Assembly: GCA_964036295.1 (NCBI GenBank)
Contig: OZ038469.1
Span: forward strand, 7,084,067-7,148,066
DNA from: Plumapathes pennacea
Lineage: Eukaryota; Cnidaria; Anthozoa; Antipatharia; Myriopathidae
Direction: 5' to 3'
DNA length: 64,000 nucleotides
The translations under genes and the position numbers were made by a program. Position 1 is the stretch's first letter. Every line of letters starts with the position of its first letter. Below the pieces are notes generated by a model, which ran no database searches, had not been told where the DNA came from, and worked only from the letters and a program-made list of their open reading frames with translations. Shown piece after piece: positions 906 to 35,666 of the stretch.

Positions 906-924
906 ATACTTACCTGACGCGGGA
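906..924 (+). pseudogene. U1 snRNA 5' fragment (nt 1-19), split by LINE copy A
   Basis: U1 nt 1-19, including the 5'-splice-site pairing sequence ACTTACCTG, stay next to the U1 promoter. The LINE begins at nt 20. The remainder of U1 is at 6782-6943. Confidence 0.95.
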
Positions 925-1330
925 CTATCGTTTTGGCGCGGGTTCAAGTCGCTGGAGTTACATCCAAGTTCATTCAAGCAAAGGATTTTGTAAGCCCTTC
1001 TTCTTTTTTCTTTTCTCTTTCCTTCTCTTGTTTGTTTTTTTGCGGCCACCCTCCTGGGGACTCCATGCTCAGTGCCTAGCACTGTAACCCAGGGTAACCG
1101 CTTTTCCTCTAATTTCTCGTATTCAACGCTCAACGGATTTATGCTCCGAATATTCGTAGCGGGAACCTCCATATTCCTGTAGAATATTCGGTAACGTTGA
1201 CTTGAATACCTAGCTCGCTCGGGTTCTTCCGACGAGTCCTTCTTGCTTCCCGAAAGTCTTTCGGGATTTTTCGTCGCCAAGTTTGGCTCAATCGTCAGCG
1301 TTTTTCGCCATATTCTGCAAATTTTGCAAA

Positions 1331-2623
1331 ATGGCGCTTCGACGTTTGCGTACCCTTACGGCTCACGTACCTTCTCCACTCGGTATGGTTGACCGAAAGG
1401 TTTTTTTGGATGCTCTTCTAAAGAGCACACCTAAAGAAGCAGTAAAGTGTGTGCAAGACATGCACGGGTATTTTCGAGTCACTTTCATCTCGGAAGAGAC
1501 AAAAGATCTCTTTGCTTCTAATGGTATGACGGTGAAAGGGGTTTCAATCCCTTTACAAGAGGCCGATGAGGCCACTCTAGTTCGTCTCTATGGGGTACCT
1601 TTCGAGGTTCCCGAAGGAAACATCCGAGCCGTCCTAGGAAAATTTGGAAATGTCCTCTCCCACCAAATGGAGATGGATAAGAAATCTGGGATCCTGACAG
1701 GGACGCGCTTGATACGGATCCGACTCACCCAGCCTATCCCAGATAGGCTTTACGTCTTGAGATATAGGTTCCAAGTATGGTACTCGGGTCAACCGAAAAT
1801 CTGCCGGGTATGCCAAGTCCAGGGTCATGTGGCCGCACGCTGCCCTAACAAGGGCCTATGCCGAGTCTGCCGCCAACCGGGACACACAGCAAAGAACTGT
1901 CCTGAGGCAAACACCCTTGTCAGCCAAAATCCCTGGCATACTCGCCTAAGGTCCAATGCTGCATCTACCAATGTTGCAGATTCTGAAAGGATTGCTGAGC
2001 CTCCCAATGTGGAGGCAGTAGCTGATCAGCCTGTTGATGAAGGCGCTACTGAAACAACACCAGAACCAAGTGCTGAAGTCGCAGAAACAGCTACTGAGGG
2101 TGGTGATAATGAAGTTGAAATAACTGATGTAGGGGATAGTCCGGAAGCTGTTAATCCTTCTGGAGCTGAATTGATTATCCCCGAGCTTGTGGCTGATGAG
2201 GGTGAGAGAGCTGGTGACTCCGTCAATGTTGAGTCTCCGCATGTTGACGCCGATGCAGTAGAACATCGTGCCACTTACATGGAAGAAGTAATTGATGAAG
2301 GGGTTAGCCCGGAAGCTGTAAGCTGCTCTGGTGCTGAGTTGATTACTCCTGTTATTGAGGGTGAGAGTGTTGGTGACTCCCCCTCGTCCGAGTCTCCGCT
2401 TGTTGATGCCGATGGCTTTATTGTTGTAAGACATCGGGCCACTCGCATACGTGAAGCACGAGATCTAAAACTCAGAGCACAAGCTGCCTCTGAAATCTTT
2501 TCTCGTTCTCGCCCGTCACGCTCTTCGTCTTGTTCACGTGTCCAATTCAGTTCCTCGTGTCGCTCCCGTTCCAACTCTCCCGCTGCGAGAGAAAAAACTA
2601 AAAACTCTAATGGAGGGTCATAA
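1331..2623 (+). CDS. LINE ORF1 protein, U1 family, copy A
   Basis: A 430-residue nucleic-acid-binding protein, presumed to coat the element RNA. Residues about 35-150 look like one or two RRM-like folds (for example LVRLYGVPFEVPEGNIR). Two CCHC zinc knuckles follow: C158-C161-H166-C171 and C177-C180-H185-C190. The acidic middle contains an imperfect duplication (about 270-315 and 326-371, both SPEAV...SGAEL...VDAD...HRAT). The C-terminus (391-416) is rich in Arg-Ser. The ATG at 1331 is chosen because it is the first in frame; upstream codons contain only a TTG, and copy D has a 1-nt deletion just upstream that leaves this ATG untouched. The stop overlaps the ATG of the candidate bridging ORF. 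Confidence 0.9.
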   Translation: MALRRLRTLTAHVPSPLGMVDRKVFLDALLKSTPKEAVKCVQDMHGYFRVTFISEETKDLFASNGMTVKGVSIPLQEADEATLVRLYGVPFEVPEGNIRAVLGKFGNVLSHQMEMDKKSGILTGTRLIRIRLTQPIPDRLYVLRYRFQVWYSGQPKICRVCQVQGHVAARCPNKGLCRVCRQPGHTAKNCPEANTLVSQNPWHTRLRSNAASTNVADSERIAEPPNVEAVADQPVDEGATETTPEPSAEVAETATEGGDNEVEITDVGDSPEAVNPSGAELIIPELVADEGERAGDSVNVESPHVDADAVEHRATYMEEVIDEGVSPEAVSCSGAELITPVIEGESVGDSPSSESPLVDADGFIVVRHRATRIREARDLKLRAQAASEIFSRSRPSRSSSCSRVQFSSSCRSRSNSPAAREKTKNSNGGS

Positions 2624-3077
2624 CTTTTTCATTACTATTACGTTTAAAACCTTAGTTCATGTACAATGGGCAATGTCCCATTTAAGAGTAAAGTGGGCAA
2701 ACCCCCACTCAAAGTTTAGCCGGGTACAGTGGACAAAGTTCCACTTTGTATATAAATTTATAACACAACGGATAATATCTCACTCAAATATAAAGTGGGC
2801 ACATCCAAACATAAGGGTACAGTGGGCAAACCCCCACTTTAGGTATATACTAATTCAGTGGGCAAACCCCCGCTCTAGGTATATATTAATTCAGTGGGCA
2901 ATGACTCACTTCAAGTATAATTTAATGGTACAGTGGGCAAACCCCCACTTGGGATACATAATAGCGCAGGTGGAAAAGTTCCACTTTCAGTTTTATTTAA
3001 AAGTACTGCTCAATCTTGAACAGCGGGATATGTACTCCTCATACACTCTATATCATGGCGTCGCTACTTTCTGTTAA
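2610..3077 (+). CDS. Candidate bridging ORF over the hairpin array, copy A
   Basis: A 155-codon frame starts with ATG 14 nt before the end of ORF1 and ends 23 nt inside ORF2. It runs through the hairpin array, whose 36-nt period gives a degenerate 12-residue repeat around QWANPH. No homology is recognised. It may be only a by-product of a period divisible by three. Of three base differences seen among copies in this stretch, two are synonymous and one is Ile to Val in this frame, which is suggestive but too few to prove coding. Confidence 0.3.
   Translation: MEGHNFFITITFKTLVHVQWAMSHLRVKWANPHSKFSRVQWTKFHFVYKFITQRIISHSNIKWAHPNIRVQWANPHFRYILIQWANPRSRYILIQWAMTHFKYNLMVQWANPHLGYIIAQVEKFHFQFYLKVLLNLEQRDMYSSYTLYHGVATFC
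2665..2985 (+). repeat. Array of short hairpins between ORF1 and ORF2, copy A
   Basis: Eight stem-loops, nearly all with a 6-bp stem and 6-nt loop, start at 2665, 2692, 2728, 2821, 2857, 2893, 2932 and 2969, mostly 36-39 nt apart. The common form is AGTGGG-CAAACC-CCCACT. Variants keep pairing: AATGGG/CCCATT, AGTGGA/TCCACT, and wobble forms AGTGGG/CCCGCT and AGTGGG/CTCACT. A degenerate unit lies near 2779-2799. The role is unknown; RNP binding, packaging or translation control are possible. Confidence 0.85.
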
Positions 3078-6000
3078 CATCAATGGTCTGAGAGACCCCA
3101 CTAAAAGAGCGGCTTTTATACGCTGGTTAAGACAGTCTGATCCTGATCTGGTTTGTGTCCAAGAGACGCACTCCATCTCAGATGTTGAGATACGCTCATG
3201 GTTTTCTTCCTCGGGTTATCTCTTTTCTGCCTCTCATGGGTCAAGTAAATCATCTGGCGTTTGCATTCTTCATAAATCTCCTTATAAATTAGTTGATGTA
3301 ACAAGAGACGACTCTGGGCGTTTTCTTCTTTGTAGATTCGATTACGCTGGCAAGTTCTTTCAACTTGCCAACATTTATGCGCCAAATCGTAATCCTGCTC
3401 GCGATGACTTCTTCGAAGACATCTCGGCCTGCCTTGATGCTTCTACCCCAATCATTCTAGCTGGGGACTTCAATGCTGTTTTTAATCCTGATGTTGACAG
3501 AAGAGGGGGCTCACCCTCCGCCTCTAGGGAGAGTACCACTACCCTCTCTGACCTATTCGAGCTTTGTGGTTGCTCTGACATCTGGAGATACTTACACCCT
3601 CAATCAAGAAAGTTCTCCTGGACCAAATCAGACGGCTCGATTGCTTCCCGTGTTGACTTAATCGGTTGCCCGTTTGATTGGGTCCCAAGCGCTCAGTCCT
3701 GTGATTTCATTGTTTGCCCTTATTCAGATCATTGTGCCTCCCTTTTTACCTTTTGTCTTCCGGAATCCATGCCTCGGGGTCCGGGATATTGGAAACTGAA
3801 TGCTTCTGTTCTTGAAGAATCTGACTATGTCGACTCTGTTACGTCCTTTTGGATCCTCTGGCAGGGTAGAAAGTCCTCTTACTCGTCTTTACTTAACTGG
3901 TGGGACTCTGGCAAACTAAAAATCAAGAATCTCACACTAGACTACTGCAAAAGAAAGGCTGAGGTCTCAAAGCAAGATCGCTCTCGCCTTACTGACAAAG
4001 CCTCTGAGTACAAGTCCCAGATAGACGGGGGTAACCTATCAGTGTTGCCAGATTACAAAAGCATACTGGAGTCTTTAAAATCTCTTGATGCTGAGGAAAT
4101 AAAAGGAGCCCAAGTTCGCTCCCGCATTAAATGGGCCGAAGAAGGCGAGACCTCCTCCGCTTTCTTTTGTCGGTTGGAGAAAAGACATGCTAACAACAGA
4201 TGGTTTTCAGCTGTCCGCAACGTAGATGGCTCATATACTTCGGACTTATCCGGGATTATGAATGCCTGGTCCTCTTTTTATCGCGATCTATTTTCCGCGG
4301 CTCCAGTCATCCCGTCTGCTCAAGATGAGATGCTCGACAAATTAGAAACTCGCCTGTCCGATTCAGAAGCAGCTAGCTGTGAAGGCCTTCTCACGACGGC
4401 TGAAGTCATGGAAGCCTTAAAGGGCATGAGCCACAACAAATCCCCTGGTTTAGACGGCCTAACTCCCGAATTTTACCTAAAATTTTGGGCGTGTCTCGGC
4501 CAAGACCTTGTCGATGTCATCAACCATGGGTACGCCACTGGGTCTCTTACTCTATCTCAACGTAGAGGTCTCATCTCCCTCCTCTTTAAGAAGGGAGATC
4601 GTTTCGACATGGCTAATTGGAGACCAATCACCCTCCTGTGCTCTGATTATAAAATAGCTTCCCGATGTATTGCTGGTCGGTTACTCAAAGTGATCTCCTC
4701 CGTGGTTGCCCCTGACCAAACTTGCGGTGTGCCTGGACGGTACATAGGAGAGAATGTTGCATTACTCCGCGACGTTGTTTCCTTTGCTTCCGAAAACAAT
4801 GTCCAGGTGGCTATCCTATCATTGGATCAGAAAAAAGCCTTTGACCGAGTTGATTGGTCTTTCTTGTTTAAGACCCTGCGCGCGATGGGCTTCGGTCCGT
4901 CTTTCCTTGCCTGGGTTAAACTCTTTTACACTAACCCTCAAAGCGCCGTATTAGTAAACGGTTACACCTCCGATTTTTTTACCCTCACTCGCGGCGTCCG
5001 ACAAGGTTGCCCTCTGTCTCCTCTCTTATACGTACTTGTTGCTGAAGTTCTAGCATGCAACATCCGTGCTGACACCCGTATCAAAGGGATCACTCTTCCC
5101 AGCCATCATAATGTCTCTGTCCTGTCCCAATATGCTGATGATACTTCAGTTATTGTAGGGTCAGACGAATCCATCCTAGCCACTTTCGAAGTTTACGCTA
5201 AATATGAGGATGCTTCGGGCGCCAAACTCAACCTTGAAAAGTGTAAAGGGTTGTGGCTTGGCTCCTGGTCCGGCCGAACCACAAAGCCCGTCGATCTGGA
5301 CTGGACCTCCGAAAAACTGAAAACTCTTGGGGTCTTCGTTGGTCCAGGTAATCTGGACCACGCTAATTGGGATCCCCGTTTGGAGGCCATAGACAATGTC
5401 TTCAACTCCTGGCGCCAACGTGCACTTTCTTTGCAGGGCAAGACGGTGGTAATCAACACCCTCGCCCTCTCCAAGTTGTGGTACGTTGCCTCCCTCATCT
5501 CTGTACCTTCCTGGGTGACCACCCATGTTAAACGATCCTTGTTTAATTTTTTCTGGAGTGGGAAGCGTGACCTAGTTGCCAGAAAGGTAGTCAACCTTCC
5601 CAAAACATTAGGAGGCTTTAACGTGGTTGATGTGGAGATGAAGATTGCTGGTCTACATGCCATGTGGATCAAGCGCTTTTTCTCGTCCTCTCACCATTGG
5701 CGGTCTTTCCTTCTCTATTGGATGCCCGACTTTGAGCAGTTTCTCCTCTCTCCAACTGTTGTCCCGGATTCTCTGCCATCCTTCTACCAAAGCGTCCTGT
5801 CCTCATGGATTGCCTTGGATGGTGGCTCCTTGCCCGGGTCGGTTTCACCGTGCATTTCTTGCCATTCTGGGGACCAGTCGATCCCTCTTGCAAACTTATC
5901 TTCCAAGATTGGTTACTCGATCCTACTAGAGCGTAACCCTCCACTCCCTAACTGTGTTACGCACTTTCAACCACACTTTGGTGACCTGTACTGGTCTGGC

Positions 6001-6555
6001 ACCTGGCCACAGGTACACTCCTTCCCTATGGATCGAGTTGTTCTAGACCTTGCCTGGAAGTCCGCTCATGGCGTTCTCTACACTGCACAACGCTTAATCT
6101 CTTTCGGCTATAATTACGACCCGAATTGCTTTTGCAAAGCCCCTCTAGAAACATTAGAGCATCTTTTTTTCTACTGTCCATTGGCGCAAAGCGGCATTGA
6201 CTGGATACAGTACCAACTACTGTCTGCCGTTCCCGTTGCGCCAAACATCTTGTGCCGTCACGTTCTCTTTGGTTTCAATCCAGACGAACTCTTAGCTGTA
6301 CCACCTGTATTCATATATTTGTTGCACTTATTGAAGTACTTTGTGTGGCTTGCCCGTAACGATTTTCGTTTCCGTAATGTATCTCCGTCGGCAGTTCACC
6401 TGGTACAGTCCATCAAGGCACGCCTGCAGTTCAATCTTAGCGTATTTTCCCGACGATTTAAATCCAACACTGCCAAGAGGCGTTTTGTTCGTCTGTGGGG
6501 GGGTCGTGGGCGATTTGCCAGCATTGCCAACGACTCCATTGTTGTTCATGTCTAA
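3055..6555 (+). CDS. LINE ORF2 protein (APE endonuclease-reverse transcriptase), U1 family, copy A
   Basis: A 1,166-residue enzyme that would nick U1 DNA and prime reverse transcription there. The APE-type endonuclease spans about 1-235: N8-N10 in SVNING, E37 in QETHS, NIYAPN, D138/N140 in GDFN, D201, and SDH at 224-226. The RT core covers about 455-770: NWRPI (521-525), motif A with D591 in SLDQKKAFD, motif B RQGCPLSP (649-656), and YADD at 693-696. A C-terminal Cys-His motif is C1025-C1027-H1036-C1041. The ATG at 3055 has A at -3 and G at +4; codons upstream in frame offer only a TTG. All catalytic residues expected of the family are present. Confidence 0.95.
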   Translation: MASLLSVNINGLRDPTKRAAFIRWLRQSDPDLVCVQETHSISDVEIRSWFSSSGYLFSASHGSSKSSGVCILHKSPYKLVDVTRDDSGRFLLCRFDYAGKFFQLANIYAPNRNPARDDFFEDISACLDASTPIILAGDFNAVFNPDVDRRGGSPSASRESTTTLSDLFELCGCSDIWRYLHPQSRKFSWTKSDGSIASRVDLIGCPFDWVPSAQSCDFIVCPYSDHCASLFTFCLPESMPRGPGYWKLNASVLEESDYVDSVTSFWILWQGRKSSYSSLLNWWDSGKLKIKNLTLDYCKRKAEVSKQDRSRLTDKASEYKSQIDGGNLSVLPDYKSILESLKSLDAEEIKGAQVRSRIKWAEEGETSSAFFCRLEKRHANNRWFSAVRNVDGSYTSDLSGIMNAWSSFYRDLFSAAPVIPSAQDEMLDKLETRLSDSEAASCEGLLTTAEVMEALKGMSHNKSPGLDGLTPEFYLKFWACLGQDLVDVINHGYATGSLTLSQRRGLISLLFKKGDRFDMANWRPITLLCSDYKIASRCIAGRLLKVISSVVAPDQTCGVPGRYIGENVALLRDVVSFASENNVQVAILSLDQKKAFDRVDWSFLFKTLRAMGFGPSFLAWVKLFYTNPQSAVLVNGYTSDFFTLTRGVRQGCPLSPLLYVLVAEVLACNIRADTRIKGITLPSHHNVSVLSQYADDTSVIVGSDESILATFEVYAKYEDASGAKLNLEKCKGLWLGSWSGRTTKPVDLDWTSEKLKTLGVFVGPGNLDHANWDPRLEAIDNVFNSWRQRALSLQGKTVVINTLALSKLWYVASLISVPSWVTTHVKRSLFNFFWSGKRDLVARKVVNLPKTLGGFNVVDVEMKIAGLHAMWIKRFFSSSHHWRSFLLYWMPDFEQFLLSPTVVPDSLPSFYQSVLSSWIALDGGSLPGSVSPCISCHSGDQSIPLANLSSKIGYSILLERNPPLPNCVTHFQPHFGDLYWSGTWPQVHSFPMDRVVLDLAWKSAHGVLYTAQRLISFGYNYDPNCFCKAPLETLEHLFFYCPLAQSGIDWIQYQLLSAVPVAPNILCRHVLFGFNPDELLAVPPVFIYLLHLLKYFVWLARNDFRFRNVSPSAVHLVQSIKARLQFNLSVFSRRFKSNTAKRRFVRLWGGRGRFASIANDSIVVHV

Positions 6556-6781
6556 AATATAAAAGAAAATAAAAGAATTTATCGTCAATTAAGATCGTAT
6601 ATATATTGTCCTTGTGATCTGTATTGTATGTCCGTACGTGTAGAATGTTATATGTGGGTTTGGCCAGGTTCGATTCCTGGAGTTCACTTTTTCTGTAGCT
6701 GGTGCTACCCATGTGCCCTGTCCTGCACACTATGCTGAGAACTGCACACCCCTTCTCACTAGTGACTAAAACATAAAAAAA
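6556..6781 (+). other. 3'UTR and A tail of U1-family LINE, copy A
   Basis: The UTR starts A/T-rich, then holds the tRNA-like segment, a 5-bp hairpin (GTAGC-TGGT-GCTAC, 6695-6708) and a terminal run of about seven A before U1 nt 3. The last 50 nt are the same in copies A-C but differ in D. Confidence 0.85.
6614..6687 (+). other. tRNA-like segment in LINE 3'UTR, copy A
   Basis: A perfect T-arm (CCAGG, loop TTCGATT, CCTGG; 6664-6680) includes a canonical Pol III B box. The next seven bases (AGTTCAC) pair at six of seven positions with GTGATCT at 6614-6620, giving a 74-nt tRNA-sized unit. The D and anticodon arms do not fold convincingly, so it is tRNA-like or tRNA-derived rather than a working tRNA gene. 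Confidence 0.6.
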
Positions 6782-6868
6782 ACTTACCTGACGCGGGAGG
6801 TACTGTGATCATGGAGGCAGTCCTCTCAGGGTGAGGCCCTTTCATTGCACTTGGACTGGGTTGACCCC

Positions 6869-6900
<32 letters not shown>

Positions 6901-6943
6901 TATAATTTCTGGTAGTGGGGACCTGCGTTCGCGCTCGTCCCCT
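6782..6943 (+). pseudogene. U1 snRNA nt 3-164 downstream of LINE copy A
   Basis: Because of the long target duplication the U1 body is nearly whole here, lacking only nt 1-2. Its promoter has been moved 5.9 kb upstream, so it is presumed silent. Confidence 0.92.
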
Positions 6944-21254: not shown

Positions 21255-21440
21255 GAGAGTATTGGCGTCAAATTTAGCATGTTATGGCGACTGTCGATTA
21301 ACGAGAGGAGGCCTGGGACTAAGTGTCTTGCCTCCACATACATGGGGACTTGTGGTGGCCGCGAGGAACTGGGGGAAAACGAATACCACATGTAGGGAGA
21401 TTTTGTGGCGGACGGCCACCCTAAGAAACTAGAAGTCGGT

Positions 21441-21472
21441 ATCGCTTCTCGGCCTTATGGCTAAGATCAAGT
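21441..21472 (+). pseudogene. U2 snRNA 5' fragment (nt 1-32), split by LINE U2-1
   Basis: U2 sequence stops at ATCAAGT, at the edge of the branch-point recognition sequence. The rest is at 27218-27370. Between 2 and 4 nt of nt 32-35 are missing at the junction. Confidence 0.95.
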
Positions 21473-21608
21473 TTTCTTAGTTTGTCGTAAGTTTCGAGAT
21501 AGCTCCTTGGTTTCTGATCGCCCGTTCGTTCCTTTTAGTGTCTTGGATATATAGCCGTTTTAGCTCCAAGATACAATTTTAGTTTTTATTTTTCGCGTCT
21601 CCAACTCA

Positions 21609-22799
21609 ATGTCTGGCGGATTCACGCCACGCCGGACCGTACGGCTCTTCCCTGACGGCGAGGATGTCGACGTTTTGGAAATCGCCCATGCTCTGACAGA
21701 GCAGAAGGAGAGCATTCAAGGCATCCAGCCCCGCTTTGGAGGGAAATGCTATGACGTGACCTTCAAAGATAACATAAGCGCCGAAACAGCGGCTTCAACT
21801 GGCCTAGACATCGCTGGCCGCCATTTTGACCTCAAGGTAGTAGGCCGAAAGAACCTTGACGTGTCAGTGTTTGTCTCGTGCGAGTTCCCCGACGCATACC
21901 TGATCGAAGCCCTGAAGCAATACGGGGAGTTCAACCTCAACATACGACATCTGTATCTGAAGGAACCTGGGTTTACCCATATAGAAAACGGTATAAGGGT
22001 CATCACCTTTACCAAGATGACGAAATCTCTCCCGCCCATGCTAGTCTATCGCAACACGCCACTGAGCTTTAGATACACTGGCCAACCCAAGGTGTGTTTC
22101 AAGTGTGGCTCGGCTGAACATTTAATCAGGGAATGCCCGAAGAAAAACAAGCGCCAAGTCCCGGTGGAAACCGCCGACGAAGCAGTTCCTGCGTCTGAGG
22201 AGGAAACCGGGAACGTTACACAGCGCGAGGAAACCGCGGACAACTCGTCCTCACACGAAATGGATGAGGACGAGCGGAAAGGAACCAAACGAGCGCGCTC
22301 GTCTGACAACGAACCAGCAGCGAAGCACAGCACCCCAGCGGCCACTTCACAAGACACTCCAGAACTTTTCACTCCTGCACCTTCGGAAACTCCAACAACA
22401 TCTAACACAGCATCTAACACGGCATCTAACACAGAATCTACCAGCTCACAACCCACAACTGAACCTCCCTTTCAACCCGTCACCTCTGGGCCCACCTACA
22501 AGAAATTCATCGAGGCGCTCAAGAACCGTGGAAAAAACCGTTCTCAGCTCGTCAAGGTGATCGACGGGGGCGTTTTTTACCGGGCTCAAGGACTTTGGCT
22601 CCAGTACCAATATGGGGACTTCGCCGACAGCTCCCGGGCCGCTCAACAAGGCTACTCAGACAGATGTTTGGAGGAGTGGCGGCGCGTACACGGGCAACTT
22701 CGCCAGGACGCCTTCGCCGAGATGTTGACACTGTACCAAGAGCTAAGAGACAAATTTGTTTTATTCCCGTCGAAACCCTCTAAAGTTTCCCAATCTTAA
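21609..22799 (+). CDS. LINE ORF1 protein, U2 family, copy U2-1
   Basis: A 396-residue RNA-binding protein. Residues about 10-160 resemble RRM-like folds and end in LSFRYTGQPKVCFKC. A single CCHC knuckle is C163-C166-H171-C176, against two in the U1 family. A low-complexity acidic and Ser/Thr-rich linker follows, with a small tandem repeat (TASN units, about 262-273). The C-terminal 95 residues (YKKFIEALKNRG... to the end) look like a folded Trp/Tyr-rich domain of unknown role. The ATG at 21609 is the first in frame after the U2 junction. The stop is 5 nt before the ORF2 ATG. Confidence 0.9.
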   Translation: MSGGFTPRRTVRLFPDGEDVDVLEIAHALTEQKESIQGIQPRFGGKCYDVTFKDNISAETAASTGLDIAGRHFDLKVVGRKNLDVSVFVSCEFPDAYLIEALKQYGEFNLNIRHLYLKEPGFTHIENGIRVITFTKMTKSLPPMLVYRNTPLSFRYTGQPKVCFKCGSAEHLIRECPKKNKRQVPVETADEAVPASEEETGNVTQREETADNSSSHEMDEDERKGTKRARSSDNEPAAKHSTPAATSQDTPELFTPAPSETPTTSNTASNTASNTESTSSQPTTEPPFQPVTSGPTYKKFIEALKNRGKNRSQLVKVIDGGVFYRAQGLWLQYQYGDFADSSRAAQQGYSDRCLEEWRRVHGQLRQDAFAEMLTLYQELRDKFVLFPSKPSKVSQS

Positions 22800-22804
22800 T
22801 CATC

Positions 22805-25800
22805 ATGTATCCTTTCACCGTATTTGTAGTCCTAATGGCTTTATCTATATGTTCGCTCAATGTAAATGGTATTCAGGAAAGGTCGAAGCGGAGTAAAGTA
22901 TTTGCTTCGCTTCGAGCTAAGAATTGCGACATCTATCTTCTGCAGGAGACGCATGTACAGAGCGTGTCCGAGGGAGAACAGTGGGAGAGAGAATGGGGCG
23001 GGCGAGCAATCTTCTCGCCCGGCTCAAACCGCTCAGCCGGCGTGGGTTTACTCATTGCCCCACGGTCACAGCTAAAAGTCGCCAGCCACCGAACGGATAA
23101 ACAAGGGCGCCTAATTTCGGCCAAAATTCAATCTCTTGCATCACCCAATTCGGATTTCCAAATCCTCAACGTCTACGCGCCGAACATAGTGTCTGCCCGC
23201 AGGGAATTTTTTGACACCTTTTGGCAACACATTTTCCCAAATGTGCCGCTCGTGCTGGGTGGCGACTTTAATTGTGTACCTGATGTGCACAGAGATAAGT
23301 TTGGCGGTGATGACACCTTTGGGGACAAAGGCATCACTGAGCTAAATTCCTTCACAGCGGCCAATTCTCTGATTGATATTTATCGTTCTAAATTCCCAAA
23401 CACCTCTGTGTACACTTGGGTTAATGGACCCCGTACCGTCGGCTGTCGGCTTGATCGTTTCTACGTGCCGCAGTCATGGAAAATGCAAGTTTCCGAAGTG
23501 ACTGTAAAACCTTTCGCTTATTCGGACCACTCGTTGGTACGGATGACGTTCACCGTGGGGCATTCAAAGTCCCGCGGGAGGGGCGTCTGGAAATTCAACA
23601 CGTCTCTTCTAAAGTCAGAATCGTTCTGCGAAGAGACTCTGAATTTCCTAAAGCACTGGCGGACACAGAGAGCGTCCTATACAGACCCCAGAGTCTGGTG
23701 GGACGCGGGGAAATTGTTTATCAAACAGATAGCAATTGACCACAGTGTCCGCCGTGCGAAAGACCGGAGATCCAAAGTGGCCGCCCTGGAGACCGAGTAT
23801 CAAGATATTTTAAGTAAAGTCGATTCAAGCGACAGCGCTCAGCGTGCTCGATTGCTGGAGATCAAGGAGTCCCTTCAGGCAATGGAGGATGAGCGCATAG
23901 AGGGAATAAAAATTCGGAGCAAAGAAAATTGGCTTGAATTTGGCGAAAAACCCACCAAGTATTTCTTTCAATTGGAGAACAAAACGCAAACAAAACATGC
24001 CATTAACGCCCTGCGGGTTGGCACGGTCACTGTCACGACCGATAAAGAAATACTTGCCGAAGCTTTGAATTTTTATAAGGCCCTCTATACGGAAGAACCT
24101 GTTGACGAGGCCTGTCAGAACTGGCTCCTCGGTCAGTTAGATAAAACCTTGGCATGCAAAGACCAAGCAAAATGCGAAGGCGAACTAACGCTCTCTGAGT
24201 GTTATGACGCTCTCAACTCAATGGAGTCTGGCAAATCTCCCGGTCCGGATGGTTTGCCTGCTGAGTTCTACTTAAGATTCTGGGGTCACCTAGGGCCAGA
24301 TCTTGTCAACACGCTGAATTATAGCTACGACAAAGGCGAGCTCTCAGTAACACAGCGCCGAGCGGTACTCCGACTTTTGTTTAAGAAGGACGACCCGGAG
24401 CTGCTGAAAAATTGGCGACCAATCTCTTTGCTAAACGTGGACTACAAGATCGCCACAAAATGTTTAGCGAACAGATTACGCACAGTTATCCGGCATGTGG
24501 TCTCTGAAGATCAAACATGCGGGATACCTGACCGCAGTATTCACGAAAATCTTTTTCTGATTCGCGATGCGATTAATTACGTGCAGGAGAAAAACCTTCC
24601 CCTGGCACTTATTAGTTTAGATCAGGAAAAGGCTTTTGACAGAGTCAACCGCCGCTTCCTCGGCAGGATCTTAGAAAAAATGAATTTCGGTCCGAGCTTC
24701 CGGCGCTGGATTGAAGTCATTTACGCAGGCACGCAATCGGCTATTGTAAACAATGGCTGGCTGTCCGATTATTTCACGCTCACCAGAGGGGTGCGACAGG
24801 GTTGTCCCCTGTCGCCTCTTCTGTACTGTTTAGTGGCTGAAACTTTAGGCCAAGCAATCAGGAACGATAAATTTATCGAGGGAATTCAAATCCCAGGGTC
24901 ATCTGGCAAGGAGAGTCGCATCTCCCAATATGCCGATGACGGAACCCTGCTGCTCCGGAATAACTTTTCAGTTGACCGAGCTTTCGGTATAATTGAATCG
25001 TTTGAACGGGGTTCAGGCTCCAAACTGAATCCTGATAAGACTGAGGGGATCTGGGTAGGCTCTAAAGCCGGTCAGTCCACAGGTCCGCAGTCCAACAAAA
25101 TGTCTTGGCGTTCAGACAAGATTAAAGTCCTTGGCCTGTTTTTCGGTAACGGAAAACTTGACAGGGCAAATTGGTCTGATCGCGTGAAGAAACTGGAAAA
25201 GCGCCTGAACTGTTGGAAATCGCGCACTCTTTCCCTCAAGGGAAAGGCAATGATTGTCAATACTTTGGGCGCTTCTGGCCTTTGGTACACAGCCACGGTT
25301 TTGCCGATGCCCAACTGGGTTCACACGCAAGTCTATCAGTTAATCTGGGACTTCCTGTGGTCAGGTAAAACTGAACTCGTGAAGCGTGAAACCTGTACAC
25401 TGCCCTGTGATCAGGGCGGCTTACAGGTCATAAATCCTGCGGAGAAAGCGAAGGCTCTAAAGCTGCGCTGGTTTCCTTGCCTGGGAAATCCAGCATACAC
25501 CGCCAAATGGGCGTATTTCGGACGTTACTGGCTCGGTTTGCCGATCGGTAAATTGTTGCCGGATTGGGGATTCCTCCGGGATAACTCCCGACCGAAATAC
25601 GCGGGTGATAATCGACCCAGAATCTACAAGAAGCTTCTAACTGACATCGACAGAGTCAAGTCTGACTTGCCTCAGCTGCAGGACTACCGAGTGAAAACTT
25701 TTTATCTCCTGCTTGTTCGGTCTCCGGGCCGATTAGCTTGTGAGTCCACGTGGACTTCGGAGCTCGGGCTTCGACTCACGTGGACGGATCTCTGGCCCCG

Positions 25801-26338
25801 TATCTACGGTGGTTTGAATCACAACAAAGAATGCGATGTAGCGTGGAAGATCGCTCACGGAGTCCTTCCAACAAAGGCATATTTACACACCTGGAAACGA
25901 CTTCGGTTGAGTGAACGCTGCTCGCGCTGTAAGGCGCGGGAAACGATCTCTCACATCTTCCTCGACTGCGCTCAGGCGCCTTCTGTGTGGGGATGGTTGT
26001 CGCAATTTACTTCTAAAGTCACTGCCATTAAATTAGAGCCAGCTACTGTCCTGCTCGGCCACGGCTTATCCTGGACGAAGCAGGACAAACACAAATCGCT
26101 ATTATTTTTATATTTAATTAAGGTCACTCTCAATGCCCTTTGGCAGGCCCGGAATTTATCTATTTTTGAACGCAAACAACTCTCACACACCGAACTCACA
26201 ACGCAAATCACTCAAACGGTTCGTTTTCGAATCAAATCAGCATACAAACACAACACAACCGACCACTTTACCCAATCCTGGGCAATAAATAACGCGCTCT
26301 GCTCTATCACGCAGGGCAAGCTAGCTTTTCACATTTAA
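22805..26338 (+). CDS. LINE ORF2 protein (APE endonuclease-reverse transcriptase), U2 family, copy U2-1
   Basis: A 1,177-residue enzyme. APE endonuclease motifs: N19/N21 in SLNVNG, E48 in QETH, NVYAPN, D154/N156 in GDFN, D217 in LDRF and SDH at 240-242. RT motifs: NWRPIS (536-541), D606 in SLDQEKAFD, RQGCPLSP (664-671) and YADD at 709-712. The C-terminal zinc-like motif is C1039-C1042-H1050-C1055. The ATG at 22805 lies 5 nt after the ORF1 stop (TAATCATCATG) in another frame, which suggests coupled termination-reinitiation as reported for SART1. An ATG ten codons later (22835) is the alternative start. Confidence 0.95.
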   Translation: MYPFTVFVVLMALSICSLNVNGIQERSKRSKVFASLRAKNCDIYLLQETHVQSVSEGEQWEREWGGRAIFSPGSNRSAGVGLLIAPRSQLKVASHRTDKQGRLISAKIQSLASPNSDFQILNVYAPNIVSARREFFDTFWQHIFPNVPLVLGGDFNCVPDVHRDKFGGDDTFGDKGITELNSFTAANSLIDIYRSKFPNTSVYTWVNGPRTVGCRLDRFYVPQSWKMQVSEVTVKPFAYSDHSLVRMTFTVGHSKSRGRGVWKFNTSLLKSESFCEETLNFLKHWRTQRASYTDPRVWWDAGKLFIKQIAIDHSVRRAKDRRSKVAALETEYQDILSKVDSSDSAQRARLLEIKESLQAMEDERIEGIKIRSKENWLEFGEKPTKYFFQLENKTQTKHAINALRVGTVTVTTDKEILAEALNFYKALYTEEPVDEACQNWLLGQLDKTLACKDQAKCEGELTLSECYDALNSMESGKSPGPDGLPAEFYLRFWGHLGPDLVNTLNYSYDKGELSVTQRRAVLRLLFKKDDPELLKNWRPISLLNVDYKIATKCLANRLRTVIRHVVSEDQTCGIPDRSIHENLFLIRDAINYVQEKNLPLALISLDQEKAFDRVNRRFLGRILEKMNFGPSFRRWIEVIYAGTQSAIVNNGWLSDYFTLTRGVRQGCPLSPLLYCLVAETLGQAIRNDKFIEGIQIPGSSGKESRISQYADDGTLLLRNNFSVDRAFGIIESFERGSGSKLNPDKTEGIWVGSKAGQSTGPQSNKMSWRSDKIKVLGLFFGNGKLDRANWSDRVKKLEKRLNCWKSRTLSLKGKAMIVNTLGASGLWYTATVLPMPNWVHTQVYQLIWDFLWSGKTELVKRETCTLPCDQGGLQVINPAEKAKALKLRWFPCLGNPAYTAKWAYFGRYWLGLPIGKLLPDWGFLRDNSRPKYAGDNRPRIYKKLLTDIDRVKSDLPQLQDYRVKTFYLLLVRSPGRLACESTWTSELGLRLTWTDLWPRIYGGLNHNKECDVAWKIAHGVLPTKAYLHTWKRLRLSERCSRCKARETISHIFLDCAQAPSVWGWLSQFTSKVTAIKLEPATVLLGHGLSWTKQDKHKSLLFLYLIKVTLNALWQARNLSIFERKQLSHTELTTQITQTVRFRIKSAYKHNTTDHFTQSWAINNALCSITQGKLAFHI

Positions 26339-26495
26339 TGTGCAGAGTCACGCTCGCGTGATTCGTTCCTAATTAGTTTCTAATTGTTTTTGAGGACAGT
26401 CACCCTGTGACTGCCCCGTTGCTGTAAACACGGTACTTTTAAGTACCTGCTAAACGGCTCAAGTGCCGATAATTTTTGATCCCTTGATTTTTCCA
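26339..26495 (+). other. Hairpin cluster at the start of the U2-1 3'UTR
   Basis: Short perfect stems follow closely: TCACG-CTCG-CGTGA (26348-26361), CAGTCAC-CCT-GTGACTG (26397-26413), GGTACTT-TT-AAGTACC (26432-26447) inside CCGTT/AACGG (26416-26420, 26453-26457), or alternatively CGGC-TCAAGT-GCCG (26455-26468). The function is unknown. Confidence 0.6.
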
Positions 26496-26729
26496 AAGTT
26501 AAGCCCGTTCCGGCGGGGACAATTTCTGGATGGGTGACCGTCAGGGAATGCCTTGATCGAGTTTCCTTTTTCATTTTTAGCATTTTCAATCAGCTATATC
26601 TCACTCGTTATTAATCTCCAATCCATAATTTTTGTTACATGATTTAGTCTACCGCATAGAGTCAACCTTTCGTCCATAACTAAACTTATGCAGGTCTGGG
26701 CGTGCCTGTAGTACCGGGCTCTATGCGGC
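26496..26729 (+). repeat. 5S rRNA-derived 3'UTR module, first copy (U2-1)
   Basis: A 234-nt module. It opens with the 3' half of 5S rRNA: AAGTTAAGCCCG (26496-26507), GGATGGGTGACCG (26528-26540), GGGAAT. It then continues into TTCCTTTTTCATTTTT, identical for 16 nt to the 3' flank of the host 5S genes here. It ends in a 10-bp stem (CCGCATAGAG 26652-26661 with CTCTATGCGG 26719-26728) whose loop holds GGGCGTGCCTGTAGTACC. Both Pol III 5S promoter boxes are present on the element's sense strand. Confidence 0.8.
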
Positions 26730-26756
26730 TTATGACCCTTATAATTCATAATTCCC

Positions 26757-26990
26757 AAGTTAAGCCCGTTCCGGCGGGGACAGTTTTAGGATGGGTGACC
26801 GTCAGGGAATACCTTGACCGAGTTTCCTTTTTCCTTTTTAACATTTTCAATCAGTTAGATCTCACTTGTTATTAATCTACACTCAATAATTTTTGTTACA
26901 TGATTTAGTATACCGCATAGAGTCACCCTTTCGTCCATTAAAAGACTTATGCAGGTCTGGGCGTGCCTGTAGTACTGGGCTCTATGCGGC
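26757..26990 (+). repeat. 5S rRNA-derived 3'UTR module, second copy (U2-1)
   Basis: A tandem copy with a 261-nt period. The 5S boxes (26757-26768, 26789-26801), T runs (26828-26832, 26835-26839) and terminal stem (26913-26922 with 26980-26989) are all kept, although intervening bases differ from the first copy. Confidence 0.8.
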
Positions 26991-27179
26991 AGAATTACCA
27001 TAATTCACTCTAGGTAGAAAAAGAAAAATAGCACATAAATATCATTATAAGAGGGAATACCCCTCGCATATACAACAAAAACATATCAAACTCTCAAAAT
27101 AGTAACTTGCATGTCAGTCGGCCTCAGATGTCTGTCTGTCTGCTGACTCAAAGTTATGTAAATAAAAATAAATAAACGG

Positions 27180-27193
27180 GGAGCTTCGGCTCC
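27180..27193 (+). other. UUCG-capped hairpin near the 3' end of U2-1
   Basis: GGAGC-TTCG-GCTCC is a very stable tetraloop hairpin 24 nt before the junction. LINE reverse transcriptases often recognise a 3'-terminal stem-loop, so this is a candidate recognition site. Confidence 0.55.
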
Positions 27194-27217
27194 TTCAGTT
27201 TTAAAAACAAAAAAAAA

Positions 27218-29946: not shown

Positions 29947-30082
29947 TTTCTTAGTTTGTCGTAAGTTTCGAGATAGCTCCTTGGTTTCTGATCGCCCGTT
30001 CGTTCCTTTTAGTGTCTTGGATATATAGCCGTTTTAGCTCCAAGATACAATTTTAGTTTTTATTTTTCGCGTCTCCAACTCA

Positions 30083-31273
30083 ATGTCTGGCGGATTCACG
30101 CCACGCCGGACCGTACGGCTCTTCCCTGACGGCGAGGATGTCGACGTTTTGGAAATCGCCCATGCTCTGACAGAGCAGAAGGAGAGCATTCAAGGCATCC
30201 AGCCCCGCTTTGGAGGGAAATGCTATGACGTGACCTTCAAAGATAACATAAGCGCCGAAACAGCGGCTTCAACTGGCCTAGACATCGCTGGCCGCCATTT
30301 TGACCTCAAGGTAGTAGGTCGAAAGAACCTTGACGTGTCAGTGTTTGTCTCGTGCGAGTTCCCCGACGCATACCTGATCGAAGCCCTGAAGCAATACGGG
30401 GAGTTCAACCTCAACATACGACATCTGTATCTGAAGGAACCTGGGTTTACCCATATAGAAAACGGTATAAGGGTCATCACCTTTACCAAGATGACGAAAT
30501 CTCTCCCGCCCATGCTAGTCTATCGCAACACGCCACTGAGCTTTAGATACACTGGCCAACCCAAGGTGTGTTTCAAGTGTGGCTCGGCTGAACATTTAAT
30601 CAGGGAATGCCCGAAGAAAAACAAGCGCCAAGTCCCGGTGGAAACCGCCGACGAAGCAGTTCCTGCGTCTGAGGAGGAAACCGGGAACGTTACACAGCGC
30701 GAGGAAACCGCGGACAACTCGTCCTCACACGAAATGGATGAGGACGAGCGGAAAGGAACCAAACGAGCGCGCTCGTCTGACAACGAACCAGCAGCGAAGC
30801 ACAGCACCCCAGCGGCCACTTCACAAGACACTCCAGAACTTTTCACTCCTGCACCTTCGGAAACTCCAACAACATCTAACACAGCATCTAACACGGCATC
30901 TAACACAGAATCTACCAGCTCACAACCCACAACTGAACCTCCCTTTCAACCCGTCACCTCTGGGCCCACCTACAAGAAATTCATCGAGGCGCTCAAGAAC
31001 CGTGGAAAAAACCGTTCTCAGCTCGTCAAGGTGATCGACGGGGGCGTTTTTTACCGGGCTCAAGGACTTTGGCTCCAGTACCAATATGGGGACTTCGCCG
31101 ACAGCTCCCGGGCCGCTCAACAAGGCTACTCAGACAGATGTTTGGAGGAGTGGCGGCGCGTACACGGGCAACTTCGCCAGGACGCCTTCGCCGAGATGTT
31201 GACACTGTACCAAGAGCTAAGAGACAAATTTGTTTTATTCCCGTCGAAACCCTCTAAAGTTTCCCAATCTTAA
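30083..31273 (+). CDS. LINE ORF1 protein, U2 family, copy U2-2
   Basis: Identical in protein sequence to the U2-1 ORF1; one silent change was noticed (GGC to GGT near 30319). Confidence 0.9.
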   Translation: MSGGFTPRRTVRLFPDGEDVDVLEIAHALTEQKESIQGIQPRFGGKCYDVTFKDNISAETAASTGLDIAGRHFDLKVVGRKNLDVSVFVSCEFPDAYLIEALKQYGEFNLNIRHLYLKEPGFTHIENGIRVITFTKMTKSLPPMLVYRNTPLSFRYTGQPKVCFKCGSAEHLIRECPKKNKRQVPVETADEAVPASEEETGNVTQREETADNSSSHEMDEDERKGTKRARSSDNEPAAKHSTPAATSQDTPELFTPAPSETPTTSNTASNTASNTESTSSQPTTEPPFQPVTSGPTYKKFIEALKNRGKNRSQLVKVIDGGVFYRAQGLWLQYQYGDFADSSRAAQQGYSDRCLEEWRRVHGQLRQDAFAEMLTLYQELRDKFVLFPSKPSKVSQS

Positions 31274-31278
31274 TCATC

Positions 31279-34200
31279 ATGTATCCTTTCACCGTATTTG
31301 TAGTCCTAATGGCTTTATCTATATGTTCGCTCAATGTAAATGGTATTCAGGAAAGGTCGAAGCGGAGTAAAGTATTTGCTTCGCTTCGAGCTAAGAATTG
31401 CGACATCTATCTTCTGCAGGAGACGCATGTACAGAGCGTGTCCGAGGGAGAACAGTGGGAGAGAGAATGGGGCGGGCGAGCAATCTTCTCGCCCGGCTCA
31501 AACCGCTCAGCCGGCGTGGGTTTACTCATTGCCCCACGGTCACAGCTAAAAGTCGCCAGCCACCGAACGGATAAACAAGGGCGCCTAATTTCGGCCAAAA
31601 TTCAATCTCTTGCATCACCCAATTCGGATTTCCAAATCCTCAACGTCTACGCGCCGAACATAGTGTCTGCCCGCAGGGAATTTTTTGACACCTTTTGGCA
31701 ACACATTTTCCCAAATGTGCCGCTCGTGCTGGGTGGCGACTTTAATTGTGTACCTGATGTGCACAGAGATAAGTTTGGCGGTGATGACACCTTTGGGGAC
31801 AAAGGCATCACTGAGCTAAATTCCTTCACAGCGGCCAATTCTCTGATTGATATTTATCGTTCTAAATTCCCAAACACCTCTGTGTACACTTGGGTTAATG
31901 GACCCCGTACCGTCGGCTGTCGGCTTGATCGTTTCTACGTGCCGCAGTCATGGAAAATGCAAGTTTCCGAAGTGACTGTAAAACCTTTCGCTTATTCGGA
32001 CCACTCGTTGGTACGGATGACGTTCACCGTGGGGCATTCAAAGTCCCGCGGGAGGGGCGTCTGGAAACTCAACACGTCTCTTCTAAAGTCAGAATCGTTC
32101 TGCGAAGAGACTCTGAATTTCCTAAAGCACTGGCGGACACAGAGAGCGTCCTATACAGACCCCAGAGTCTGGTGGGACGCGGGGAAATTGTTTATCAAAC
32201 AGATAGCAATTGACCACAGTGTCCGCCGTGCGAAAGACCGGAGATCCAAAGTGGCCGCCCTGGAGACCGAGTATCAAGATATTTTAAGTAAAGTCGATTC
32301 AAGCGACAGCGCTCAGCGTGCTCGATTGCTGGAGATCAAGGAGTCCCTTCAGGCAATGGAGGATGAGCGCATAGAGGGAATAAAAATTCGGAGCAAAGAA
32401 AATTGGCTTGAATTTGGCGAAAAACCCACCAAGTATTTCTTTCAATTGGAGAACAAAACGCAAACAAAACATGCCATTAACGCCCCGCGGGTTGGCACGG
32501 TCACTGTCACGACCGATAAAGAAATACTTGCCGAAGCTTTGAATTTTTATAAGGCCCTCTATACGGAAGAACCTGTTGACGAGGCCTGTCAGAACTGGCT
32601 CCTCGGTCAGTTAGATAAAACCTTGGCATGCAAAGACCAAGCAAAATGCGAAGGCGAACTAACGCTCTCTGAGTGTTATGACGCTCTCAACTCGATGGAG
32701 TCTGGCAAATCTCCCGGTCCGGATGGTTTGCCTGCTGAGTTCTACTTAAGATTCTGGGGTCACCTAGGGCCAGATCTTGTCAACACGCTGAATTATAGCT
32801 ACGACAAAGGCGAGCTCTCAGTAACACAGCGCCGAGCGGTACTCCGACTTTTGTTTAAGAAGGACGACCCGGAGCTGCTGAAAAATTGGCGACCAATCTC
32901 TTTGCTAAACGTGGACTACAAGATCGCCACAAAATGTTTAGCGAACAGATTACGCACAGTTATCCGGCATGTGGTCTCTGAAGATCAAACATGCGGGATA
33001 CCTGACCGCAGTATTCACGAAAATCTTTTTCTGATTCGCGATGCGATTAATTACGTGCAGGAGAAAAACCTTCCCCTGGCACTTATTAGTTTAGATCAGG
33101 AAAAGGCTTTTGACAGAGTCAACCGCCGCTTCCTCGGCAGGATCTTAGAAAAAATGAATTTCGGTCCGAGCTTCCGGCGCTGGATTGAAGTCATTTACGC
33201 AGGCACGCAATCGGCTATTGTAAACAATGGCTGGCTGTCCGATTATTTCACGCTCACCAGAGGGGTGCGACAGGGTTGTCCCCTGTCGCCTCTTCTGTAC
33301 TGTTTAGTGGCTGAAACTTTAGGCCAAGCAATCAGGAACGATAAAGTTATCGAGGGAATTCAAATCCCAGGGTCATCTGGCAAGGAGAGTCGCATCTCCC
33401 AATATGCCGATGACGGAACCCTGCTGCTCCGGAATAACTTTTCAGTTGACCGAGCTTTCGGTATAATTGAATCGTTTGAACGGGGTTCAGGCTCCAAACT
33501 GAATCCTGATAAGACTGAGGGGATCTGGGTAGGCTCTAAAGCCGGTCAGTCCACAGGTCCGCAGTCCAACAAAATGTCTTGGCGTTCAGACAAGATTAAA
33601 GTCCTTGGCCTGTTTTTCGGTAACGGAAAACTTGACAGGGCAAATTGGTCTGATCGCGTGAAGAAACTGGAAAAGCGCCTGAACTGTTGGAAATCGCGCA
33701 CTCTTTCCCTCAAGGGAAAGGCAATGATTGTCAATACTTTGGGCGCTTCTGGCCTTTGGTACACAGCCACGGTTTTGCCGATGCCCAACTGGGTTCACAC
33801 GCAAGTCTATCAGTTAATCTGGGACTTCCTGTGGTCAGGTAAAACTGAACTCGTGAAGCGTGAAACCTGTACACTGCCCTGTGATCAGGGCGGCTTACAG
33901 GTCATAAATCCTGCGGAGAAAGCGAAGGCTCTAAAGCTGCGCTGGTTTCCTTGCCTGGGAAATCCAGCATACACCGCCAAATGGGCGTATTTCGGACGTT
34001 ACTGGCTCGGTTTGCCGATCGGTAAATTGTTGCCGGATTGGGGATTCCTCCGGGATAACTCCCGACCGAAATACGCGGGTGATAATCGACCCAGAATCTA
34101 CAAGAAGCTTCTAACTGACATCGACAGAGTCAAGTCTGACTTGCCTCAGCTGCAGGACTACCGAGTGAAAACTTTTTATCTCCTGCTTGTTCGGTCTCCG

Positions 34201-34812
34201 GGCCGATTAGCTTGTGAGTCCACGTGGACTTCGGAGCTCGGGCTTCGACTCACGTGGACGGATCTCTGGCCCCGTATCTACGGTGGTTTGAATCACAACA
34301 AAGAATGCGATGTAGCGTGGAAGATCGCTCACGGAGTCCTTCCAACAAAGGCATATTTACACACCTGGAAACGACTTCGGTTGAGTGAACGCTGCTCGCG
34401 CTGTAAGGCGCGGGAAACGATCTCTCACATCTTCCTCGACTGCGCTCAGGCGCCTTCTGTGTGGGGATGGTTGTCGCAATTTACTTCTAAAGTCACTGCC
34501 ATTAAATTAGAGCCAGCTACTGTCCTGCTCGGCCACGGCTTATCCTGGACGAAGCAGGACAAACACAAATCGCTATTATTTTTATATTTAATTAAGGTCA
34601 CTCTCAATGCCCTTTGGCAGGCCCGGAATTTATCTATTTTTGAACGCAAACAACTCTCACACACCGAACTCACAACGCAAATCACTCAAACGGTTCGTTT
34701 TCGAATCAAATCAGCATACAAACACAACACAACCGACCACTTTACCCAATCCTGGGCAATAAATAACGCGCTCTGCTCTATCACGCAGGGCAAGCTAGCT
34801 TTTCACATTTAA
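31279..34812 (+). CDS. LINE ORF2 protein, U2 family, copy U2-2
   Basis: Differs from the U2-1 protein at three residues: F264L, L403P and F690V. None touches a catalytic motif. L403P lies in the linker before the RT domain and could affect folding. Confidence 0.95.
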   Translation: MYPFTVFVVLMALSICSLNVNGIQERSKRSKVFASLRAKNCDIYLLQETHVQSVSEGEQWEREWGGRAIFSPGSNRSAGVGLLIAPRSQLKVASHRTDKQGRLISAKIQSLASPNSDFQILNVYAPNIVSARREFFDTFWQHIFPNVPLVLGGDFNCVPDVHRDKFGGDDTFGDKGITELNSFTAANSLIDIYRSKFPNTSVYTWVNGPRTVGCRLDRFYVPQSWKMQVSEVTVKPFAYSDHSLVRMTFTVGHSKSRGRGVWKLNTSLLKSESFCEETLNFLKHWRTQRASYTDPRVWWDAGKLFIKQIAIDHSVRRAKDRRSKVAALETEYQDILSKVDSSDSAQRARLLEIKESLQAMEDERIEGIKIRSKENWLEFGEKPTKYFFQLENKTQTKHAINAPRVGTVTVTTDKEILAEALNFYKALYTEEPVDEACQNWLLGQLDKTLACKDQAKCEGELTLSECYDALNSMESGKSPGPDGLPAEFYLRFWGHLGPDLVNTLNYSYDKGELSVTQRRAVLRLLFKKDDPELLKNWRPISLLNVDYKIATKCLANRLRTVIRHVVSEDQTCGIPDRSIHENLFLIRDAINYVQEKNLPLALISLDQEKAFDRVNRRFLGRILEKMNFGPSFRRWIEVIYAGTQSAIVNNGWLSDYFTLTRGVRQGCPLSPLLYCLVAETLGQAIRNDKVIEGIQIPGSSGKESRISQYADDGTLLLRNNFSVDRAFGIIESFERGSGSKLNPDKTEGIWVGSKAGQSTGPQSNKMSWRSDKIKVLGLFFGNGKLDRANWSDRVKKLEKRLNCWKSRTLSLKGKAMIVNTLGASGLWYTATVLPMPNWVHTQVYQLIWDFLWSGKTELVKRETCTLPCDQGGLQVINPAEKAKALKLRWFPCLGNPAYTAKWAYFGRYWLGLPIGKLLPDWGFLRDNSRPKYAGDNRPRIYKKLLTDIDRVKSDLPQLQDYRVKTFYLLLVRSPGRLACESTWTSELGLRLTWTDLWPRIYGGLNHNKECDVAWKIAHGVLPTKAYLHTWKRLRLSERCSRCKARETISHIFLDCAQAPSVWGWLSQFTSKVTAIKLEPATVLLGHGLSWTKQDKHKSLLFLYLIKVTLNALWQARNLSIFERKQLSHTELTTQITQTVRFRIKSAYKHNTTDHFTQSWAINNALCSITQGKLAFHI

Positions 34813-34969
34813 TGTGCAGAGTCACGCTCGCGTGATTCGTTCCTAATTAGTTTCTAATTGTTTTTGAGGACAGTCACCCTGTGACTGCCCCGTTGCTGTA
34901 AACACGGTACTTTTAAGTACCTGCTAAACGGCTCAAGTGCCGATAATTTTTGATCCCTTGATTTTTCCA
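34813..34969 (+). other. Hairpin cluster at the start of the U2-2 3'UTR
   Basis: Same stems as at 26339-26495, with no base change noticed. Confidence 0.6.
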
Positions 34970-35203
34970 AAGTTAAGCCCGTTCCGGCGGGGACAATTTC
35001 TGGATGGGTGACCGTCAGGGAATGCCTTGATCGAGTTTCCTTTTTCATTTTTAGCATTTTCAATCAGCTATATCTCACTCGTTATTAATCTCCAATCCAT
35101 AATTTTTGTTACATGATTTAGTCTACCGCATAGAGTCAACCTTTCGTCCATAACTAAACTTATGCAGGTCTGGGCGTGCCTGTAGTACCGGGCTCTATGC
35201 GGC
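34970..35203 (+). repeat. 5S rRNA-derived 3'UTR module, first copy (U2-2)
   Basis: No difference noticed from the module at 26496-26729. Confidence 0.8.
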
Positions 35204-35230
35204 TTATGACCCTTATAATTCATAATTCCC

Positions 35231-35464
35231 AAGTTAAGCCCGTTCCGGCGGGGACAGTTTTAGGATGGGTGACCGTCAGGGAATACCTTGACCGAGTTTC
35301 CTTTTTCCTTTTTAACATTTTCAATCAGTTAGATCTCACTTGTTATTAATCTACACTCAATAATTTTTGTTACATGATTTAGTATACCGCATAGAGTCAC
35401 CCTTTCGTCCATTAAAAGACTTATGCAGGTCTGGGCGTGCCTGTAGTACTGGGCTCTATGCGGC
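35231..35464 (+). repeat. 5S rRNA-derived 3'UTR module, second copy (U2-2)
   Basis: No difference noticed from the module at 26757-26990; divergence between the elements begins right after it. Confidence 0.8.
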
Positions 35465-35652: not shown

Positions 35653-35666
35653 GGAGCTTCGGCTCC
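35653..35666 (+). other. UUCG-capped hairpin near the 3' end of U2-2
   Basis: Stem and loop are unchanged although the surrounding 200 nt vary between the two copies. Confidence 0.55.

Follow-up and report, generated by a model that had tools for sequence, protein, structure and literature searches.

APE-type LINEs of one clade occupy a single site in the U1 snRNA genes of Plumapathes pennacea and share their end modules

Results

The window analysed here, a 64-kb stretch of the Plumapathes pennacea genome (C8:7084067-7148066), is made up for the most part of a tandem array of 5S genes on the minus strand and U2 and U1 snRNA genes on the plus strand, as annotated with Rfam. The array contributes 19 U1, 19 U2 and 19 5S matches; 17 of the 19 U2 matches have the full score, and the two lower-scoring ones lie to the right of an insertion. 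Units free of LINEs measure 1371 or 1361 bp and are nearly identical, with 22 variable alignment columns among 18 units. Between 8837 and 21136, the LINE-free units alternate between the two lengths and form a two-unit higher-order repeat. The array ends near 60.9 kb of the window, and beyond it lies an open frame of at least 349 aa (62954-64000) with no Pfam match above the cut-off. Among the matches listed, the snRNA array also reaches far to the left of the window (C8:6837016-6892260), with a strand switch near 6.879 Mb. Excerpts of published reports describe linked 5S, U1 and U2 genes in the coral Acropora pruinosa (PMC8167085), 5S-U2 linkage in Favites (PMC9005458), and linkage of 5S and snRNA genes outside cnidarians too (PMC8167085, PMC9005458). 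Six LINEs, all on the plus strand, interrupt the array in the window: copies A-D in U1, and copies E and F in U2. The exact sequence of U1 nt 1-19 is present 19 times and is followed by the LINE start CTATCG in four of the 19.

The U1 LINE is about 5.86 kb long, and its copies lie at 925-6781 (A), 37424-43280 (B), 44667-50525 (C) and 53285-59143 (D). The numbers of mismatches between them are 1 for A/B, 15 for A/C, 31 for A/D and 20 for C/D; the A/C changes show a weak excess of synonymous ones (7 of 14, p=0.03). In copy A, a 5' end module (925-1110) is followed by ORF1 (1331-2623, 430 aa), which has two CCHC zinc knuckles, an inter-ORF spacer (2624-3054), ORF2 (3055-6555, 1166 aa counted from the first ATG) and a 3' tail module closing with poly(A) (6655-6781). 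Both ORFs are open in all four copies, as the first-pass annotation of this DNA had stated. The 431-nt spacer has a fold z of -2.68, with 2 of 100 shuffles equally good. It contains a 36-bp tandem repeat and a series of similar short hairpins, e.g. GTGGGCAAACCCCCAC.

ORF2 encodes an APE-type endonuclease (PF03372), a reverse transcriptase (PF00078) and a C-terminal zinc motif (zf-RVT) according to Pfam. An EEP/APE domain followed by RVT_1 in ORF2, together with the poly(A) and the target site duplication, characterizes the element as an APE-type LINE. Among solved structures, the best relative of ORF2 is human L1 ORF2p (4.6e-84), with R2 far weaker (1.2e-19), and the endonuclease is best matched by L1 endonuclease constructs. 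Judged by this closest solved-structure relative, the elements at the U1 site (U1a) are assignable to the L1/Tx1 superfamily. Endonuclease positions kept across the U1a, U1b and U2 families compared include N26, E55, Y126, D156, N158, D219, D243 and H244, which we take to be the APE catalytic set. A search of viral contigs for relatives of the U1 LINE gave none; in phages, two records matched, both at an annotated exodeoxyribonuclease III. An R2-like self-cleaving ribozyme at the 5' end was considered and rejected, as no Rfam family, ribozymes included, was found in 890-1340 at E up to 2. At 21440-21620, the U2 remnant was the sole Rfam match in the ribozyme search.

The U1 LINEs have U1 nt 1-19 on their left and nt 3-164 on their right, so that nt 3-19 is duplicated. 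At copy A, these flanks occupy 906-924, with the duplicated stretch at 908-924, and 6782-6943, with its second copy at 6782-6798. The right junction reads as poly(A) followed by CTTACC, and since the A of nt 3 is indistinguishable from the poly(A), the duplication measures 16-17 bp. Four full-length copies with junctions at U1 nt 19 and nt 3 and a duplication of this length had been claimed in the first-pass annotation, and this was confirmed for A-D. The same pair of junctions was found in all 11 insertions seen from both sides (A-D, L005-L010 and S7211); S7211 is an internally deleted copy that keeps both ends and has one base change at the right junction. Three further right junctions lie at U1 nt 3 with their left sides out of view, and one further left junction (7267898) has a U1a-type 5' end with its other side out of view. 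In the genome search, which included the window, 14 right junctions were found at U1 nt 3, each of them on C8, and 5 of these 14 carry base changes inside nt 3-19.

We then asked how far this site specificity holds in one genome, that of the window itself (290 Mb in 24 contigs). Using ORF2 of copy A as the query, 44 places were obtained from the best 39 of 1174 candidates scored. Relatives with at least 48% identity make up 18 of the 44 places, and among the matches listed all 18 lie at 7.087-7.378 Mb of C8. With the 3' UTR of the U1 LINE as a DNA query, all 19 candidates matched: each of the 14 tail copies on C8 is followed by U1 from nt 3, and the other five, four on C2 and one on C9, are not beside U1. 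Three of the four C2 places have flanks in common and probably go back to a single event. The sequence read upstream of the off-site tails (1.8-2.7 kb for three of the five, a few hundred bases for two) contains no ORF2. The C9 place and one C2 place have in common a body of about 1 kb that is unlike the U1 LINEs except in the tail region. Four loci on C9 and C2 (L031, L035, L054 and L055), with the U1a tail at non-U1 sites and no ORF2 similarity in the sequence read, are possible non-autonomous hitchhikers. The junction search covered 101 of its 217 matches. Two junction-like matches with two mismatches each (C2 and C3) had no LINE tail within 80 bases on either side and were absent from the tail search, and were read as chance. 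Flanks of the clade fragments L025, C8:7372328 and C8:7377075 lie outside the view, and these were excluded from the junction counts. As an internal control, seven copies of two dispersed families (L019-L022 with L026; L028 and L029) had seven different 3' flanks, and no U1 match was found in L019-L022 or L026-L030.

Given the 14 C8 tails at U1 nt 3 and the five off-site tails without ORF2, ORF2-bearing members lie only in U1 wherever their flanks were in view, and the tail has travelled on other elements. The check proposed with the first-pass annotation, to list 3'-end flanks genome-wide, thus places all C8 tails at U1 nt 3 in this one genome, and its claim of insertion into U1 alone holds for the ORF2-bearing members with flanks seen, but not for the tail, since 5 of 19 copies are off U1. 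We propose U1a as a U1-specific group on the basis of flanks seen at U1 nt 3/19 in the 11 two-sided insertions and the 14 right junctions.

In ORF2, the lineages at the U1 site share 53-61% identity with copy A. A reverse transcriptase tree was calculated from 350 columns and 23 of the 26 loci given, with L019 and L027 dropped for orientation and L052 for coverage; the near-identical copies L002, L004, L012-L014, L020 and L021 had been left out of the input. In this tree, U1a members form one clade with 100/100 support, separate from the families in U2 and at the second U1 site and from the dispersed ones, and L025 falls inside the clade on a long branch. Three different LINEs of the group (L005, L006 and L008) stand in a triple tandem whose spacers are exactly U1 nt 3-19 (C8:7298850-7317870).

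Common junctions could also result from common descent, if one or a few insertions had been multiplied with the array by unequal crossing-over and conversion. The single base between A and B and the near identity of the array units agree with such copying, and in the window alone A and C have 15 mismatches in 5858 positions of the body versus 1 in 1371 of the flank (Fisher p=0.34), a difference that is not significant and still compatible with it. Yet the junctions are common to lineages with strongly diverged ORF2, three different LINEs follow one another with nothing but the duplicated U1 stretch between them, and D sits in an edge unit that is shorter and has variants of its own. We regard descent from one or a few insertions as very improbable, and the diverged bodies at one site rule out array copying as the main cause. 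Because several diverged ORF2 lineages and the three-element tandem share one site, U1 occupancy is the outcome of repeated site-specific insertion and not of one insertion multiplied with the array; between the two explanations that had first been considered, targeting and array copying, the former is upheld. A and B, with one mismatch between them, may still have arisen by duplication of a single unit.

Other LINE families in the array use other sites. Copies E (21473-27216) and F (29947-35688) belong to a different family with 36% ORF2 identity to the U1 LINE; E has U2 nt 1-32 on its left and U2 from nt 35/36 on its right, and F occupies the same site. Their ORF2 begins 5 nt past the ORF1 stop, unlike in the U1 LINE with its spacer. 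At least two LINE families are present in U2, the E-type (left nt 32, right nt 35/36) and the L016-type (left nt 33, right nt 38/39). S7210, a 642-bp deleted copy of the L016-type, joins U2 at nt 38/39 on its right, and the L016-lineage member L018 does so at nt 37, with its left side out of view. In U1 there is a second site: at L015 and L017 (C8:7167200-7180941), the left flank is U1 nt 1-33 and the right flank nt 26-164, the duplication is 8 bp long, and a clear poly(A) is lacking. These two are 95-100% identical to each other in all 250-bp windows but one, where L017 has a gap, and their ORF2 identity to copy A is about 36%.

These families bear on an alternative in which location or RNA, and not the enzyme, selects the target. 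A LINE RNA made from the U1 promoter, starting with U1 nt 1-19 or reading into U1, could pair or be tethered near U1 genes, with a loose endonuclease cutting there. Insertion does leave the U1 upstream region and nt 1-19 ahead of the LINE and nt 3-164 behind it, and such targeting would easily explain why endonucleases only 49-67% identical share one site. But the junctions are the same in every two-sided case, and other LINE families of the array cut U1 elsewhere (nt 26/33) or cut U2, pointing to the enzyme. The target specificity of the Tx1L endonuclease is the subject of a published study. We consider targeting by location or RNA unlikely and retain site-specific insertion by the element's own endonuclease.

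Comparison of A with L006, L008/L009 and L007/L010 in 250-bp windows gave 39-66% identity in the body, 74-90% in the first window and 81-91% in the last. The 5' module of U1a LINEs, about 190 nt, has many invariant positions; paired changes on both sides occur in only 2 of 46 predicted pairs, and the fold z of the first 200 nt of the U1 LINE is -1.24. The tail module of copy A contains a T-arm-like hairpin (6664-6680) and a terminal hairpin (6736-6758). The T-arm-like hairpin is present in 17 of the 18 copies examined, L007 being without it, and its second pair is CG, GC, AT or GT, with two misfits. A tRNA origin of the tail was nevertheless rejected: ARAGORN found no tRNA in the window and Rfam no match in 6556-6782 at E up to 1. 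The terminal hairpin occurs in two types. In 14 sequences with arms aligned by hand, which include related copies so that the events are not independent, 79 of 84 cells are paired and 5 of 6 pairs have changed on both sides; B, identical to A there, and the four C2 tails, which are without the hairpin, were omitted from this count. When the arms are swapped between the two types, 2 of 6 pairs are left. The tail folds are moderate, with z of -1.93 for A and -2.75 for D, and in D the minimum-energy fold of a longer tail recruits upstream bases, the hairpin being one of two readings.

Such common ends might reflect purifying selection on RNA signals alone, in a clade that has always lived in U1 and without any exchange between lineages. 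RNA signals are expected at the ends, and the tail hairpins carry paired changes. Copy D, on the other hand, has a C-like body that belongs to the A lineage, which is about 54% identical to L006 in ORF2, but in the last 45 bp ahead of the poly(A) it agrees with L006 at 44 of 45 positions, compared with 32 identical, 11 mismatched and 4 gap positions against A. Copy D shows tail exchange between lineages directly, and since its tail fits L006 and not its own-lineage copy A, exchange has happened at least once. A and L009 also have almost the same 5' end and L007 differs there, although L007 is closer to L009 in ORF2 (RT 74% vs 65%, a grouping with tree support of only 49/72). Selection alone is therefore doubtful as an account of the common ends, and we favour exchange, by which recombination would also lie behind the common 5' ends. 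The observation is thus larger than first described, comprising a clade of LINEs at the U1 site, a second U1 site, and end modules that are shared and were swapped at least once.

Discussion

Taken together, U1a is very probably a clade of APE-type, L1-superfamily LINEs that inserts at one site in U1 snRNA genes by target-primed reverse transcription, with the tail as a probable handle for ORF2 and with lineages exchanging their end modules. In the proposed mechanism, the ORF2 endonuclease would nick the bottom strand at 5'-CAGGTAAGT/AT-3', between U1 nt 3 and 2, and the freed 3' end would prime the copying of the poly(A)-ended LINE RNA. A subsequent cut of the top strand after U1 nt 19 would give the 17-bp duplication. 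Lying 19 nt behind the U1 start, a U1a element could make use of the U1 promoter. The shared 3' tail, with its T-arm-like hairpin and covarying terminal hairpin, is probably the part recognised by ORF2. Since the lineages converge on a single site, end modules may be traded there between their RNAs or DNA copies. The presumed nick is right behind GTAAGT, which we take to be the consensus 5' splice site, and this adjacency raises the question of how such an enzyme spares introns.

A broader proposal, to which we give an even chance, is that U1a constitutes an end-sharing consortium. Reverse transcriptase lineages 39-47% diverged from A in protein would use one 17-bp site and exchange 5' and 3' modules by template switching or conversion, so that target, tail and protein evolve separately; the arms of the terminal hairpin would change while its loop stays mostly fixed, and a distant LINE family would occupy the second U1 site. 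From co-resident families that share and swap ends, one could learn by natural experiment which parts of the RNA an APE-type LINE requires.

Tx1L and other target-specific LINEs of the Tx1 clade have two ORFs, a CCHC ORF1, an L1-like ORF2 with APE, and site specificity. By this description, they resemble U1a in layout and site specificity and differ in target. No U1-targeting LINE was found in the open-licence literature among the matches listed, which is in line with the first-pass annotation, to which no described U1-specific family was known. In the excerpted text of one source, targeting of snRNA genes is reported only for Keno, Utopia, Dada-U1 and Dada-U6 (PMC4640811). Keno is described there as a U2-targeting LINE with an apurinic-like endonuclease, found in frogs, fish, lancelet and hydra, and is like U1a in that it is a LINE with an APE-type endonuclease and inhabits a multicopy snRNA gene (PMC4640811). 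Its description sets it apart by the U2 target, as U1a inserts at U1 nt 3/19 with a 17-bp duplication and its right junctions on C8 are in U1 in 14 of 14 cases. Utopia, according to the same excerpts, likewise targets an snRNA gene and has several families within one array (Phytophthora), but it uses a restriction-like endonuclease and U2 (PMC4640811); in U1a, an APE-type domain was found instead, and the target is U1. Dada-U1 of zebrafish also inserts at one site inside U1 snRNA genes, yet it is described as a DNA transposon of the DDE kind, without a reverse transcriptase, for which a duplication of 6 bp (GCGAAT/GCGAAC) has been proposed (PMC3706591, PMC8869645). U1a has an ORF2 with reverse transcriptase and a 16-17 bp duplication in place of DDE and 6-7 bp. 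Mutsu, in an excerpt of one of these reports, is a LINE in a small RNA gene as U1a is, but its target is the 5S rRNA genes of zebrafish (PMC3706591).

The present elements add U1 as a LINE target, at two positions, and site-specific LINEs are of interest as gene-insertion tools. For Utopia/Keno, the right flank on U2 is given in the excerpted text as nt 39 for oomycete Utopia (PMC4640811), and the right junctions of L016 and S7210 (U2 nt 38/39) and of L018 (nt 37) lie at or near that flank. In the U2 LINE, the 3' UTR contains a tandem pair of 239-bp repeats (91%; 26491-26990 in copy E), noted for copy E and the loci L011-L014, L023 and L024. Within them, a stretch of 89 bp resembles the 5S rRNA gene at about 79% and scores 18.2 bits in Rfam, under the family cut-off.
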